DNA of 5,692 nt from a bacterium (GTDB lineage Bacteria > T1Sed10-126): assembly GCA_003554945.1 (NCBI GenBank), contig PWHN01000091.1:1-5692 (forward strand), written 5' to 3'. Every line of letters begins with the position of its first letter. Position 1 is the first letter of the stretch. Both the position numbers and the translations under genes were made by a program. The notes below the pieces were generated by a model. It did no database searches, had not been told where the DNA came from, and worked only from the letters and a program-made list of their open reading frames with translations. This document shows, piece by piece, positions 157 to 5,417 of the stretch.

Positions 157-1473
157 CTACTCCAACACTTCCCCGTCAATCTTCACCTTCCCCCTCAACC
201 TATCCACTGTTGCCGGTCCAATCCCCGTCACGTTCTCAAGATCTTCAAGTCTTCTAAATCTGCGCCGGCGATCACGATAACTAATAATATTTTCAGCCGT
301 CGATTCTCCGATACCAGGCAAAGTCTGCAGTTCACCTGACGTCGCATTGTTTAAATCAACAGCAAGCCGATCACGCGCCTGTCGACGCTCTGCGGCCGGC
401 ACAGGCTTCAATTCAAAATCTGTCACCGGCAAATCTTCTCGCTCCGGTATAGCTACTGATAGATCGGCCGGACGCACCCCGCTGGCTCTTTCTGCTGCCA
501 GGTGTACTCCCAGCTCCGTCTTATTCTCAATTCTTATCTTTTCTCCGTCCAGGAAAGCAAATATCGTCCCTTCCTCATCCGTCCGGTATATCTGCGAGCC
601 AAGCTCACGCAGCCTATCAATTACCTCCGGCGACGGATGTCCGTATGTATTATAGGCCCCTACCGTAAATACAGAGTATTCAGGCGAAACAATCCGGGCG
701 AAGGGATAGCTGGTCGAAGTCCGGACGCTGCCGTGGTGGCCCACCTTCAGAATATCCACATCCAGCTGCTCGCCCCAGTGAATAATTAGCCTTTCTTCTC
801 CCGGAAATTCTAAATCACCGGTGAACATAGCGCTGGTCTCTCCATAACGCAGCTTTACGACCAGACTGCTGTCGTTTACATTTTCGGCGTCCGGATTTGT
901 GTATAGCAGCCACAACTGCGCCCCACAATCAAGTTCTATTTTTGTCCCGGGCAACAAACTCCCCCCGACCTCCTGCGGTGCTTCCACCTTAACGCCCCAC
1001 CGCTCTGCTTCCTGGAGCAGTGCCTCGTTAGCTGATGTCGGATGGTCCTTCCCCGAAATCCATAACTCTCCAATCTCCAGCGACGAAATTACCTCCGGAC
1101 CTCCACCAATGTGGTCACTGTGTGGGTGACTGGTTATAAAATAATCCAGCCGGTTAATGTTATTACACCGCAGAAAGGGAACAATGAGTCTCTCGCCTGC
1201 GTATACACTCTGCGCCTGCGCAAAATCCGGTCGCCCACCTTCGCCGGCGTCTATCAGAATATTCTGTTGTTTTGCCGTCTGTATGAATATGGCGTCCCCC
1301 TGGCCCACGTCCAGAAAAACTATCGCCATTTCGTGGGGCTTTCTCTCCTGGAGAAGAAAGGCACACTCTTCACTCCACCAGTATGCAGCCGCCCCGCCGC
1401 CTACAATCGCTGATATTAAAGTAACTAAAACAATCAGCGCTACAGATTTACTCGCAGGTCGCTCAAACATCAT
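157..1473 (-). CDS. Membrane-anchored ComEC-type metallo-beta-lactamase-fold hydrolase with C-terminal ComEA-like HhH domain
   Basis: A 438-residue protein. One N-terminal hydrophobic helix (residues about 11-30, after R5 and K9) predicts N-in/C-out topology, or a cleaved signal at AAA|Y. Residues 50-310 carry the ComEC/Rec2-type metallo-beta-lactamase fold: VFLDVGQGDAIFI (52-64), NILIDAG (71-77), the metal motif HPHSDH (116-121), NDSSLVV (200-206), FTGD (217-220), GHHGS (245-249) and GHPSPEV (278-284). The putative metal ligands are present, so it should be active, probably as a phosphodiesterase or nuclease. In ComEC the equivalent domain is thought to degrade the non-transported strand. 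The ComEC channel domain is absent. A linker (311-370) joins the ComEA-like double HhH (372-432: VDLNNATSGELQTLPGIG, VTGIGPATVDRL), which has a basic stretch DRRRRFRRLE between the hairpins, suited to DNA binding. GAGGAG lies 7 nt upstream of the ATG, which overlaps the stop of the barrel gene by ATGA. A second ATG directly follows the first. The ComEC-like assignment is firm; the substrate is inferred. Confidence 0.9.
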   Translation of the reverse strand: MMFERPASKSVALIVLVTLISAIVGGGAAAYWWSEECAFLLQERKPHEMAIVFLDVGQGDAIFIQTAKQQNILIDAGEGGRPDFAQAQSVYAGERLIVPFLRCNNINRLDYFITSHPHSDHIGGGPEVISSLEIGELWISGKDHPTSANEALLQEAERWGVKVEAPQEVGGSLLPGTKIELDCGAQLWLLYTNPDAENVNDSSLVVKLRYGETSAMFTGDLEFPGEERLIIHWGEQLDVDILKVGHHGSVRTSTSYPFARIVSPEYSVFTVGAYNTYGHPSPEVIDRLRELGSQIYRTDEEGTIFAFLDGEKIRIENKTELGVHLAAERASGVRPADLSVAIPEREDLPVTDFELKPVPAAERRQARDRLAVDLNNATSGELQTLPGIGESTAENIISYRDRRRRFRRLEDLENVTGIGPATVDRLRGKVKIDGEVLE

Positions 1474-2558
1474 TTAGCCCACTCCTCTTCCCAGCTGGAA
1501 TATTTACCCCTCCATTCTTCGCGCCAGCCAGGCATCTGCCAGGGCCAGGGATCGGGCGGTGCCTCCCAGTATTCTCCACGTTCACCACCAAATTTCAAGC
1601 CCACACTCAGCATATGCTTATCGGTTAACAAATCGGCCCGGCTCCAGCTGTAATCCACCGTCAGGTTTCGATGTTTCACCCCGATACCCAGCGATAGATT
1701 GTCGTCAAAACTCTCTCCTCTGGCATCCTGGCTGCCGGTTCTTAAAAACAAGAAGTCATTAAAACCATATTCTATCCCCAGTCCATATTCAACCGTCTCC
1801 TCCGGTTCCAGGTAGGAAAGATCAAGCGCAACCTGAAGACTGCCCGCCGCTTCCTCTCCAAGCACAAAAGGTGTTCCGGTCAGGTCTCTTTCACTCACAA
1901 CTCCCGCCCTGAACTTACGGGGCAACGGATCCCGCTCGTCCACCATCTTCAACCCTCGACCCAGGTTCTGAGCCGCCAGCCCCACCCGCAGGGGTACAAA
2001 ATAGTCGATCTCAGTCAACAGACCAAGATCAAAAGCAAAGGTCGTTGCCTCCTCACCGGCAAGTCGCTGCTGAATCAAATTAACCCCTGCTCCCCAGTCC
2101 AGGTTTCTACCTACTCTGCCCGCATAATACGCTCCCAGCGATCCACCATAATCCGTAAAGGTGCCTATTTTTCTACCCGTTTCGTCCCGCCTGTCACCGC
2201 CAATATGGGTAAAACGGCCGCTCACTGCAAGCGTCCTGTCATAAGCTATTGGTCGCACGTAACTGGCTATTTCATTGTTTACCTCGTAGACCTCCTCCTG
2301 GTGAGAAAAGCCGAAAGAAGTTCGTTCAATTCGATTTATAGCGGCCGGGTTCCACAACGGAGCGAAGGCATCGTGACTTGCCGCAGCCTGGGCGCCGCCC
2401 ATTGCTGTGGCTCGGGCTCCCGCCGGAAGCTGCAGAAAATCAGCACCGGCTCGGCCCACTGCCGCGTCCGCGGATGACGCCATGACTGTAAACACCGACA
2501 GCAAACCAATTGCCATAAAAACCAATATTAAAACTATCTCATGATTATATCTTTTCAT
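1470..2558 (-). CDS. PorV/PorQ-like (UPF0164-type) outer-membrane beta-barrel protein with Trp-rich C-terminal tail
   Basis: A 362-residue exported barrel. Residues 1-32 are a signal peptide (MKRYNHE, hydrophobic core, ADA|A cleavage likely). The mature start has the family signature: AGADFLQLPAGARATAMGGA, then DAFAPLWNPAAI, where the WNPA block is diagnostic. Alternating amphipathic strands follow (ASYVRPI, TLAVSGRFTHIG, GAGVNLIQQRL, LRVGLAAQNLG, LPRKFRAGV, FLFLRTGS, LTVDYSWSRAD, HMLSVGLKFGG). In the type 9 secretion system PorV is the outer-membrane shuttle that receives cargo by its C-terminal domain; relatives elsewhere are often unassigned. After the last strand a 37-residue tail carries seven Trp with acidic and Pro residues, unusual for a barrel that normally ends in an aromatic residue. 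The ATG at 2558 is preferred because AGGTGAG lies 7 nt upstream; an in-frame GTG at 2570 (366 residues) is possible, with GAGG 9 nt upstream. The 121 bp upstream of that GTG hold no convincing promoter. The TGA stop overlaps the next ATG. Confidence 0.85.
   Translation of the reverse strand: MKRYNHEIVLILVFMAIGLLSVFTVMASSADAAVGRAGADFLQLPAGARATAMGGAQAAASHDAFAPLWNPAAINRIERTSFGFSHQEEVYEVNNEIASYVRPIAYDRTLAVSGRFTHIGGDRRDETGRKIGTFTDYGGSLGAYYAGRVGRNLDWGAGVNLIQQRLAGEEATTFAFDLGLLTEIDYFVPLRVGLAAQNLGRGLKMVDERDPLPRKFRAGVVSERDLTGTPFVLGEEAAGSLQVALDLSYLEPEETVEYGLGIEYGFNDFLFLRTGSQDARGESFDDNLSLGIGVKHRNLTVDYSWSRADLLTDKHMLSVGLKFGGERGEYWEAPPDPWPWQMPGWREEWRGKYSSWEEEWAK
1481..1487 (-). promoter_or_regulatory. Shine-Dalgarno site of the metallo-beta-lactamase-fold gene
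   Basis: On the minus strand the site reads GAGGAGT, 7 nt upstream of the ATG at 1473. It lies inside the end of the barrel gene, so the two genes probably have coupled translation. Confidence 0.75.
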
Positions 2559-2565
2559 TGGTTTA

Positions 2566-2573
2566 CTCACCTT
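2566..2573 (-). promoter_or_regulatory. Shine-Dalgarno site of the PorV-like gene
   Basis: On the minus strand the site reads AAGGTGAG, with AGGTGAG ending 7 nt before the ATG at 2558. It overlaps the alternative GTG start at 2570, whose own possible site is GAGG about 9 nt further upstream. The match favours the ATG. Confidence 0.7.
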
Positions 2574-2691
2574 TTTCAGCCTCGAAAATTGCTTGAAATA
2601 GCTCTCAGCAGCAGAGGATTTCCCTCAGCAAAACTTCCTTCCGCTATCAAATTTCACAGAACAGCAGATTTCTCCTCACCGCCCTCAACAA

Positions 2692-4131
2692 TTATCTGAG
2701 CAAGGTCACGCTGTCCCGGCCCAGCACGTTGTTCCTGCCTTCCACCACGAAAATATAAGTACCGCTGGAGACCGAACGGCCTGAATCGTTGCGACCGTCC
2801 CAGCTAATCCCATCACTGTCCTGACCCTCAAGTTCTCTGATTAGTCGCCCACGCACGTCAAATATCGTGATCCGCTCGCTAATCTCGGGGACCACAAACC
2901 GCGCCTCTTCCCCCCGCACGGGATGAAATGGATTCGGGTAGGCATAAATCTGGCTGGTAAAGTCAGCCGACAACACAGCATCGGCCCACATTGTAATTTT
3001 TGTTTCCCTGGCGCCGGGGTCATCCAGGTTCTCCACGTCTCCCGTCCACTCTTGAAAACTGTAGTCTCTATCTGCCACCGCCTCCAGTTGTAACTCCGTT
3101 CCTTCGTAGACGGTGGTATCGGATATTATCTCCTCTTCAACGTACAGTCTTCCCCCCGCTGGTTGTTCTATCGTCAACGTATACTCTTCCCGTTCTGTCG
3201 TGTTAACCTCAATTTCAAGTGCATCGCTGTCCGACTCAAAAACTCCCTCGCTGTCGGCATCGATCGAGGCTTTTAGCTCCCCCGTCCTTTCAATTCCACT
3301 ATCAAAAGTGATCTCCACCGTCGCTTCTCCACCCTCTGTTGTTGAAACAAGGTTGCCCGCCAACAAATCGTCGATATCGCCTGGCTCCACTGAAACTATA
3401 TCCGTCTCTTCAAAATCACTTAGCTCAAAAATAATCTCAACGTCATCAACATCAGCATCTATTGCTGCCGCCCACTCTTCGGCATGTGTATCACCAAATG
3501 TTCTGATAAAAGTCTCACCGCTTAATTTTACTTCTTTGGCCTCCAGAAAACCCGGATACCTCCAACTGGCTGGAGATTCTTCCATACCTAACCAGGCTGC
3601 CCCTATATACAAAGTATTTTCTATACCATCGCCTCCATCATCCGTTGTTTTTATTTCTACCCCCCCATCATCACCTTCTGTCCCTGTGGTAGTTGCTTCA
3701 TTTGTAACTTCTATCCAATTGGTTTCGTTATCTAATTCTATAGGATCGGACCAGTTAGTATGACCGGAGGGATACTCAATGCCCAACTCAACGGTTCCAG
3801 TCCCTTTCACCCAAACACTGGCATGATACTTGGTTGAAACTTCAGTCAAACCATCTGTTTGTTCTAATGTGCGTTCGCTTCCTCCATCCACTCGAACTGA
3901 ATAATCCCCCACTAACGCATCGGCATCTTGATGCCAATTAGTTTCGAAAGAATGCGAACCTTCCCAATGGTTGGGTTGGGTGTCTCCCCAATCTTCAAAA
4001 AAAGGATTCTGCAGTAAATTTCCACCACTCCCTCCATAAACTGCCGGGAGCAGACTAAAGCTGAAGAACAACAAGAAAAGAAAAAACAGCCCTCCCCTTC
4101 CAAAATAATTATGTTGTCTGCTAAAGTTCAC
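2692..4131 (-). CDS. Secreted multidomain beta-rich protein with InlB B-repeat-like domain and FlgD/T9SS-type C-terminal sorting-like module
   Basis: A 479-residue exported protein. Residues 1-33 are a signal peptide (R5, R12, then a Phe/Leu-rich core, VYG|GSG cleavage likely). Residues about 38-195 begin NLLQNPFFEDW and end near SPASWRYPGF, typical of CBM4/9-like jelly-roll modules that bind carbohydrate or act as adhesin domains. Residues about 200-312 form an acidic Ig-like region. Residues 316-391 match the divergent InlB B-repeat pattern (YTLTIEQPAGG, YEGTELQLEAVADRDYSFQEWTGDV, VLSADF). Residues 396-479 are a FlgD-Ig/type 9 secretion C-terminal module: YAYPNPFHP, ITIFDVRGRLIREL, ISWDGRNDSGRSVSSGTYIFVVEG. 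The start is GTG, 2 nt after the preceding TAA, with only a weak ribosome site, so translation is probably coupled to the upstream gene. It encodes no recognisable catalytic residues. By architecture it is a surface adhesin or stalk-type structural protein and the likely cargo of the PorV-like neighbour. The exact role is not recognised. Confidence 0.85.
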   Translation of the reverse strand: MNFSRQHNYFGRGGLFFLFLLFFSFSLLPAVYGGSGGNLLQNPFFEDWGDTQPNHWEGSHSFETNWHQDADALVGDYSVRVDGGSERTLEQTDGLTEVSTKYHASVWVKGTGTVELGIEYPSGHTNWSDPIELDNETNWIEVTNEATTTGTEGDDGGVEIKTTDDGGDGIENTLYIGAAWLGMEESPASWRYPGFLEAKEVKLSGETFIRTFGDTHAEEWAAAIDADVDDVEIIFELSDFEETDIVSVEPGDIDDLLAGNLVSTTEGGEATVEITFDSGIERTGELKASIDADSEGVFESDSDALEIEVNTTEREEYTLTIEQPAGGRLYVEEEIISDTTVYEGTELQLEAVADRDYSFQEWTGDVENLDDPGARETKITMWADAVLSADFTSQIYAYPNPFHPVRGEEARFVVPEISERITIFDVRGRLIRELEGQDSDGISWDGRNDSGRSVSSGTYIFVVEGRNNVLGRDSVTLLR

Positions 4132-4133
4132 AG

Positions 4134-5417
4134 TTACTCTAAATCCTCAATCAATGAAGGTCCGATTCCCCAGACCTCCTCGAGATCCCATAGGTCTTCA
4201 AAATAACCAACCTGTTCCCGGTGGGCGACAATGTCTTCCGCACGCGCCGGTCCGACACCGGGCAAATCCTCAAGTTCTGATGCAGTGGCGGTGTTAATGT
4301 TTATCCCGTTAGCATATACCGCCGGCGGTCCGTTATCATCCGGTTCAGGGTCCCTCTCCACTGGCGGTTCCAAATCAGGAAAATCCACGTCCTCAGGTGG
4401 TCTTACCCCCGGCGCGGCAGCCAAAATATCATAGGTGAACAACTCAACTTTAGGGCTATCTTTCAGTTGCCTTAAATTTGACTCCCAGAGCTGACTGAAA
4501 TATCCGCCGGTAACTGCATCAATCCGCGCTATTTTACGCCGCAACTGCATCTCGTAGACAACCGCCCGGTCACCGCTCACATCCTCCCGCACCATCTCGA
4601 CAAGATCTTCTTCAATATCAAAATAGAGTTCAGTCAAGTTGTATAACATCTCCTCCCGATCATCTCTTATCGACCGCGCCTCCCGGGATATTCGCTGTTC
4701 TTCCAATGAATCCATAAAATTGTCGGAAAGATCCCAGCCTAAATCTACCTGCCAGTAGTAATCATCAGGTCTGGGGCCAATAGTATCGTCAGGCCAGGTA
4801 GCATCCGTTAAACGGGTTAGGTCCGACTCGTCCTGGCGATAACGGAAGGATAAATCGGGAATCCATATTTTCTGACGCAAGCGTCTCTTCCAGTTCTCTA
4901 CCATCTGCGGGTGCAGGTGATTGTATCGCATAGCCGCATCCTGTATTTCTTCCAGCTCCGGCCAGGCTCGCAGTCGATCCGCAGGCGTCACCACCGGCTT
5001 TACTTCAAACTCCACCCGCCGTCTGACTGTCCTCGCCCCATCAGCCTCTACATAGACCTGGGCTCTGTATCGATCGGCCGACTCCAGTGGCCCCACCTCA
5101 AAACTAACCCCGAATTCTTCTGAGGCACTTAACCGGTCTAACACTTCGGTTTGTTCAAACATCCGGCCACGCTTCTCACCACTTATCTCAAGCGTCACTT
5201 CAATATTTTCTGCCTCAACCCCGGCAGTTTCTTGCACCTTCAGAAAAACTATCCCATAATCCCTGCCCTCGGCCCCATCAGGGAACTCTTCCTGAAAATC
5301 TACCACTTGAAATTGCGGAACATCCCCGGCCACACCTGCTATTGTCCCCACAAAAATCAATAAACCTACAAACACGAATAACACCAGCAACATTCTTACT
5401 CCGGCTGAACTCTTCAT
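4134..5417 (-). CDS. Secreted protein with N-terminal beta-sandwich, TolC-like helical module and C-terminal ComEA-like HhH domain
   Basis: A 427-residue exported protein, first gene of the operon. Residues 1-30 form a Sec signal peptide (K2 and R8, then a long hydrophobic core, GVA|G cleavage likely). Residues about 32-142 are beta-rich and look like an Ig/CARDB-type sandwich. Residues about 145-325 contain a helical stretch, a segment with IPDLSFRYR, WQVDLGWDL and later LTELYFDIEEDL and IDAVTGGYFS. From memory this pattern recalls an uncharacterised envelope family of deltaproteobacteria with TolC-like helices, but I could not check it. A Pro/Asp/Glu linker (338-370) leads to a double HhH (371-427) with NINTATASELEDLPGVGPARA and VWGIGPSL, the ComEA dsDNA-binding fold. 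That HhH is strongly acidic, about 14 acidic against 2 basic residues. The ATG at 5417 is chosen because GGAGGT lies 7 nt upstream and the signal peptide starts there. An in-frame TTG at 5495 would add 26 residues before the signal peptide and has no good ribosome site. The stop lies 2 nt before the next start. The function is unknown; a DNA-binding or scaffold role in the envelope is inferred. Confidence 0.85.
   Translation of the reverse strand: MKSSAGVRMLLVLFVFVGLLIFVGTIAGVAGDVPQFQVVDFQEEFPDGAEGRDYGIVFLKVQETAGVEAENIEVTLEISGEKRGRMFEQTEVLDRLSASEEFGVSFEVGPLESADRYRAQVYVEADGARTVRRRVEFEVKPVVTPADRLRAWPELEEIQDAAMRYNHLHPQMVENWKRRLRQKIWIPDLSFRYRQDESDLTRLTDATWPDDTIGPRPDDYYWQVDLGWDLSDNFMDSLEEQRISREARSIRDDREEMLYNLTELYFDIEEDLVEMVREDVSGDRAVVYEMQLRRKIARIDAVTGGYFSQLWESNLRQLKDSPKVELFTYDILAAAPGVRPPEDVDFPDLEPPVERDPEPDDNGPPAVYANGININTATASELEDLPGVGPARAEDIVAHREQVGYFEDLWDLEEVWGIGPSLIEDLE

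Follow-up and report, generated by a model that had tools for sequence, protein, structure and literature searches.

A candidate detached ComEC-type nuclease with a fused HhH domain in a putative composite operon of envelope-protein genes

The nuclease domain of ComEC (PDB 9ic4; TIGR00361 C-terminus) is an MBL domain, and in the Moorella protein mutation of H598, D600, D602, H603, D700, H725 or S728 stops or weakens the nuclease, whilst joining the ComEA DNA-binding domain to it in an engineered fusion raised nuclease activity (PMC12455585). A 2021 study reported that almost half of bacteria have a ComEC without such a nuclease domain and regarded removal of the non-transforming strand in those bacteria as an open question (PMC8579336). 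Outside the ComEC lineage, a halotolerant, secreted Thioalkalivibrio DNase with a DNase I fold and a duplicate HhH stays active in high salt thanks to a C-terminal HhH domain (PMC4486849). Stand-alone proteins in which an MBL is followed by a C-terminal HhH (annotated as 'MBL fold metallo-hydrolase') are already known from Firmicutes, for example Listeria and Alkalihalobacillus, in genomes that keep an active-site-intact ComEC. In S. pneumoniae a probably inactive ComEC MBL is accompanied by a separate membrane nuclease, EndA, whose nuclease fold is unrelated to MBL. At the cell surface, the T9SS of Bacteroidota couples tailed surface genes to partner barrels, PorV with type A cargo and, in Flavobacterium, PorP/SprF shuttles with type B cargo (PMC12618676).

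The window analysed here, the whole of a 5,692-base contig (C20), comes from a 2.2 Mb draft genome (G000) that is 93.5% complete. Four reading frames, all on the minus strand, fill positions 157-5417 and follow each other 5' to 3' as P4, P3, P2 and P1 (Table 1), with 2 nt between P4 and P3, a gap of 121 nt between P3 and P2 and a 4 nt overlap between P2 and P1. The initial annotation had described four proteins, exported or anchored, whose domains include two HhH, a ComEC-type MBL and a PorV-family barrel, and the reading frames and domain searches confirm this; export is predicted from N-terminal hydrophobic segments and, in P1, also from a predicted helix at residues 9-37, which looks like an anchor in the membrane and not like a secretion signal that is cleaved. 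A single transcript for the four genes, also proposed there, is plausible rather than proven on sequence grounds, given the close spacing, the strong hairpin after P1, the repeat upstream of P4 and the lack of a terminator-like fold in the P3-P2 gap (z 0.25). The symmetry of the upstream repeat would also allow it to be a terminator for a gene beyond the contig, or a binding site.

Table 1 Features of the window and of related loci in the genomes compared.
Feature	Position or locus	Strand	Evidence
P4, 427 aa exported protein, unnamed domain and C-terminal HhH	4134..5417	-	best start ATG 5417, preceded by GGAGG
P4 unnamed domain, motif ...VTRLYFERRRLQ...DALTGG.FS	4485..4964	-	profile match E 4.4e-53
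P4 HhH domain, ComEA-type	4140..4316	-	HHH_3 E 7.5e-19; net charge -12
P3, 479 aa exported surface-type protein, InlB B-repeat and FlgD-like tail	2692..4131	-	domain search
P3 FlgD_ig / type A-like C-terminal tail	2695..2940	-	FlgD_ig above cut-off; T9SS models below; alignment
P2, 366 aa PorV/PorQ-family outer-membrane barrel	1470..2570	-	NF033709 and recurrent pairing
P1, 438 aa predicted membrane-anchored ComEC-type MBL fused to HhH	157..1473	-	domains, fold, predicted helix
P1 MBL (ComEC nuclease-type) domain	529..1335	-	9ic4 by sequence and fold; active site
P1 metal-binding motif HPHSDH, residues 116-121	1111..1128	-	residue alignment
P1 HhH domain, basic run RDRRRRFRR	184..360	-	HHH_3 E 3.7e-18; 12 K/R, net 0
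Terminator-like hairpin after P1	80..126	-	-29.2 kcal/mol, z -6.3
Perfect inverted repeat upstream of P4	5560..5596	.	-22.7 kcal/mol, z -6.8
P4-type domain in diverse phyla	L238, L239, L245, L241, L244, L302, L304, L307		
comEC operon with extra HhH genes and detached MBL	G000 C47 (L011:5314-11081), G001 C106 (L101), G029 C26 (L104)		
comEC operon with extra HhH genes and detached MBL	G176 C17 (L236), G290 C112 (L237)		
Barrel/FlgD-tail gene pairs	G000: window, L112-L117; G001: L102, L246-L250		

The two middle genes belong to a pattern repeated across this genome. P3 matches the InlB B-repeat (1.7e-9) and ends in a FlgD_ig domain (29.8 bits against a cut-off of 27), and it shares its N-terminal part with further large surface proteins found in the family. 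The tail had been read as a sorting module; the FlgD_ig match holds, but the T9SS models fall below their cut-offs (TIGR04183 type A, 20.7 vs 23; CHU_C, 21.5 vs 27), so the sorting module stands as a resemblance. P2 is a member of the PorV/PorQ family (NF033709, 142.5 bits vs 90) and falls well short of the T9SS PorV equivalog (NF033710, 54 vs 250). A PorV-family barrel lies directly downstream of a FlgD-tail gene in 9/10 cases in G000, in 6/6 in a genome of the same family (G001) and in at least three of the seven loci read in G029, from another phylum. By its sequence the P3-P2 unit is thus a surface protein with a dedicated PorV-family partner barrel, a generic, repeated pair and not a DNA module, and it provides no evidence of DNA capture. 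It shares with the Bacteroidota systems a tailed surface gene directly before its partner barrel and differs in that the barrel is PorV-family, with one per tailed protein, and in its tail, which scores below the T9SS cut-offs. The SprA translocon was not found in G000 at its 93.5% completeness, and G001 and G029 gave weak matches below the cut-off. In G000 these genes are likely to form cargo/partner-barrel pairs in a genome with no recognisable T9SS translocon.

P4 carries a domain that matched no Pfam or NCBIfam family in the library searches and for which the structure search found no solved relative. A single-sequence model (pLDDT 45) was too poor for use, and comparison with the TolC profile gave a probability of 0.8% from a two-sequence profile only, so that a TolC-like half-barrel is no more than a lead. 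The domain occurs in 21/386 genomes, and the protein that carries it is usually exported. Fusions to HhH are present in G000, G077 and G219; the domain adjoins an HhH gene in G369 and a ComEC-type MBL in G269, and lies beside lamin-tail-domain genes, or one gene away from them, in G057, G128, G132, G219, G269, G369, G043 and the G381/G093 genus. Often it is also found at the C-terminus of a propeller-like protein. These associations suggest a connection of the family with nucleic acid on the cell surface, and to that extent a DNA link for P4 is upheld. Its own HhH is less accommodating: strongly acidic, with just two K/R residues, it makes DNA binding by P4 doubtful, and DNA binding by both HhH domains, as initially envisaged, cannot be assumed. 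Conservation of the four genes together, also expected, was not found either, as none of the 21 genomes shows the three partner genes in any neighbourhood that was read and the domain is absent from G001 (91% complete), the nearest relative compared, in which the four-gene unit is therefore not conserved.

In P1, profile searches detected the C-terminus of ComEC_Rec2 (1.3e-39) and Lactamase_B (1e-13) in addition to HhH, the ComEC_Rec2 match staying under its equivalog cut-off because the channel is absent. The transmembrane channel domain, Competence (PF03772), was missing from P1 in the profile search and is present in a separate comEC on contig C47; as comEC and ComEA-type genes exist elsewhere in the genome, the window locus does not stand in for the channel. 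The solved ComEC nuclease domain 9ic4 ranked top both by sequence (E 2.5e-35) and in a fold search with the AlphaFold model of P1 (mean pLDDT 82; E 3.7e-22). Aligned to the Moorella residues listed above, the P1 counterparts are H, H, D, H, D, H and S, in which H at position 600 is the usual alternative residue, and the protein has the ComEC-type MBL nuclease pattern of H-x-H/D-x-D-H, a downstream D and H..S. With the catalytic residues intact and the match to 9ic4 in both sequence and fold, P1 is very probably an envelope nuclease that carries a DNA-binding domain, its activity, location and DNA binding being predicted from sequence and model; the earlier assignment of a nuclease fold and a DNA-binding HhH is accordingly retained for P1. 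Relative to ComEC, P1 shares the fold, all metal and catalytic residues and the side of the MBL tree, but is devoid of the channel and the OB fold, has a membrane anchor of its own and is fused to HhH, a layout which resembles the engineered ComEA-MBL fusion (PMC12455585). Partial matches to the anti-phage MBL proteins LmuA, Avs1a and 6A-MBL reflect the shared fold only, and this identity was rejected.

The HhH domains of P1 and P4 are both of the ComEA type, exceeding the cut-off for the ComEA-type HhH region (TIGR00426; 54.4 and 54.3 vs 53.1). Neither protein has the whole-protein ComEA architecture (TIGR01259; 63.1 and 59.3 bits vs 152), and unlike in ComEA the HhH is fused to a nuclease-type domain in P1 and to an unnamed exported domain in P4. 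The P1 HhH is the least acidic among the HhH domains of this genome that were compared, in a proteome that is itself acidic (median pI 4.88 in a sample of 89 reading frames), which suggests a salt-rich habitat.

In a tree of 119 MBL domains, built by quick search and with long pseudo-MBL branches (two of five could not be placed), the P1 domain grouped with the MBLs of contig C35 in G000 and C87 in G001 with support of 100. These fall in a clade of eight, placed on the ComEC side of the tree, that contains only detached MBLs of two small phyla (SH-aLRT 97). The opposite side holds the stand-alone MBLs of Firmicutes along with their five MBL-HhH fusions, and kinship of P1 with those fusions was rejected by the tree and the AU test (p-AU 0.0076 against joining). 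P1 is thus a variant of a kind of fusion already known from Firmicutes, with the same domain order and in a separate clade. Its linker and HhH match the separate HhH genes beside the MBLs of C35 (44%) and C87 (43%), hence P1 most likely arose by fusion of an HhH/MBL pair like that on C35, with the order swapped. Since P1 stands apart from the Firmicutes fusions and seems to derive from its own pair, MBL-HhH fusion has probably arisen at least twice.

The comEC gene of G000, which is full, lies in an operon of ndk, comEC, a triple-HhH protein gene, an MBL gene and a double-HhH lipoprotein gene. The order in G001 is the same from the comEC end onward, where its contig begins, and the core of comEC, HhH protein and MBL recurs in three genomes of another phylum (G029, G176 and G290); in G029 and G176, ndk precedes comEC. 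Residue alignment demonstrated that in all five genomes the metal motif is gone from the MBL that ComEC itself carries: the mapped sites in G000 read S-H-R-R..D..A..A, and the degenerate motifs are SAHPRRSGG in G000 and LSALGPEHSEG in G029. The detached MBL within the operon is intact in G029, G176 and G290 and degenerate too in G000 and G001, so that in these two any rescue would need to come from other loci; intact detached paralogues away from comEC are encoded by C35 and P1 in G000 and by C87 in G001. Eight ComEC MBL domains of other genomes in the same table keep their metal ligands, with the exception of a single Q at D600, a tolerant position. For a control, we examined genomes found via a stand-alone MBL, and 15/19 keep the ComEC metal ligands, so a detached MBL alone does not imply replacement of the ComEC nuclease and was rejected as a general marker of its loss. 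Coexistence of a stand-alone MBL with an intact ComEC is the usual state, and the 5/5 loss is particular to these lineages, its five genomes coming from two small phyla, related within two groups and not representing five independent events.

Several neighbouring observations concern the same gene families. An apparent split of channel and nuclease is seen in Chthonomonas (L134:159-2626) and in Patescibacteria (L197:7760-10756), where comEC is devoid of MBL and the gene after it encodes a ComEC-type MBL, separate and intact. Ozemobacter (G306; L275/L276, L161) encodes two ComEC-like proteins whose MBL sites are lost or absent, alongside another protein with an intact MBL, and is possibly a further case of a detached nuclease. 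In G000 itself, a secretin-like protein whose C-terminal part resembles HhH repeats is encoded upstream of comEC (L011:2-3400), and contig C107 encodes an exported protein of 988 aa that has two HhH domains and whose C-terminal half is long and repetitive (L013:6462-9428).

Building on the domains, the intact and lost motifs, the gene order and the clade, we infer how P1 might act. An anchor would hold the protein in the inner membrane, and both MBL and HhH would lie in the periplasm, where the basic ComEA-type HhH may hold DNA beside the active site and the MBL would cut it with two metals. The raised activity of the engineered fusion (PMC12455585) and the high-salt activity that HhH gives the halotolerant DNase (PMC4486849) both speak for this layout. 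ComEC retains its channel, with its own MBL devoid of the metal motif, and the nuclease step on DNA at the inner membrane would most likely be done by P1 and the unfused paralogue pair on C35. P3 and P2 would remain a generic surface protein/barrel pair, and P4 an exported accessory from a DNA-associated domain family. That the window is a lineage-specific composite operon, and that its P1 is a detached, signal-anchored ComEC-lineage nuclease with a DNA-holding HhH which most likely supplies the lost ComEC cutting together with the C35 pair, is a joint reading to which we give an even chance.

The same genes may be read differently. P1 could be an envelope or external DNase that feeds on or clears extracellular DNA and is unrelated to ComEC uptake, in which case the HhH would give salt-tolerant DNA binding and P3 and P2 would simply share a promoter. 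The position of P1, outside the comEC operon and next to surface-protein genes, agrees with this and counts against an uptake role, as does the coexistence of the detached Firmicutes fusions with intact ComEC nucleases; halophiles, moreover, have HhH- and lamin-tail-fused DNases (PMC4486849), and the family of P4 adjoins lamin-tail genes. The Thioalkalivibrio DNase is like P1 in its C-terminal HhH and salt-adapted setting, but does not belong to the ComEC lineage. Against an external enzyme, the clade of P1 consists of comEC-operon MBLs and their paralogues, ComEC's own site is lost in every one of the five genomes, and P1 has a predicted membrane anchor instead of a cleaved signal, on which grounds we regard this explanation as rather unlikely, though worth keeping in view. 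A role of P1 in uptake is favoured by its clade and the lost ComEC site, one in degradation by its locus.

Two further readings give the neighbouring genes a greater part. P1 could act as a phosphodiesterase on an envelope polymer during surface assembly, with the HhH domains as protein-contact modules, as the second-ranked fold match of its model is phosphorylcholine esterase Pce, the P4 HhH is strongly acidic and P3-P2 is a surface pair; the ComEC nuclease is nevertheless the best match by both sequence and fold, the P1 HhH is basic within an acidic proteome, and we find this improbable. The initial annotation had favoured four proteins working as one dedicated system that captures, docks or degrades external DNA across the envelope, in keeping with the tight gene spacing, two HhH proteins in one unit and, in other phyla, the occurrence of the P4 domain family alongside HhH and lamin-tail genes. 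The gene order was not found elsewhere, P3-P2 is generic, the P4 HhH looks unsuited to DNA and the canonical comEC genes lie elsewhere in the genome, all of which makes such a system highly improbable.

Returning to a detached nuclease that serves ComEC, the loss of the ComEC metal motif in 5/5 genomes and the presence of an intact detached copy in each suggest a two-part ComEC in at least two phyla, in which the nuclease left in place is dead and a duplicated, membrane-anchored copy degrades the strand, here with a ComEA-type grip; we advance this tentatively, at somewhat less than even probability. S. pneumoniae provides the precedent, pairing a ComEC that has an altered site with a distinct membrane nuclease, with the difference that the nuclease here is a ComEC-lineage MBL. 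If true, the two-part ComEC would amount to a counterpart, evolved in nature, of the engineered ComEA-MBL fusion, and a detached ComEC-lineage MBL with a ComEA-type HhH would offer a specific candidate, with known catalytic residues, for the nuclease of ComECs that have none.
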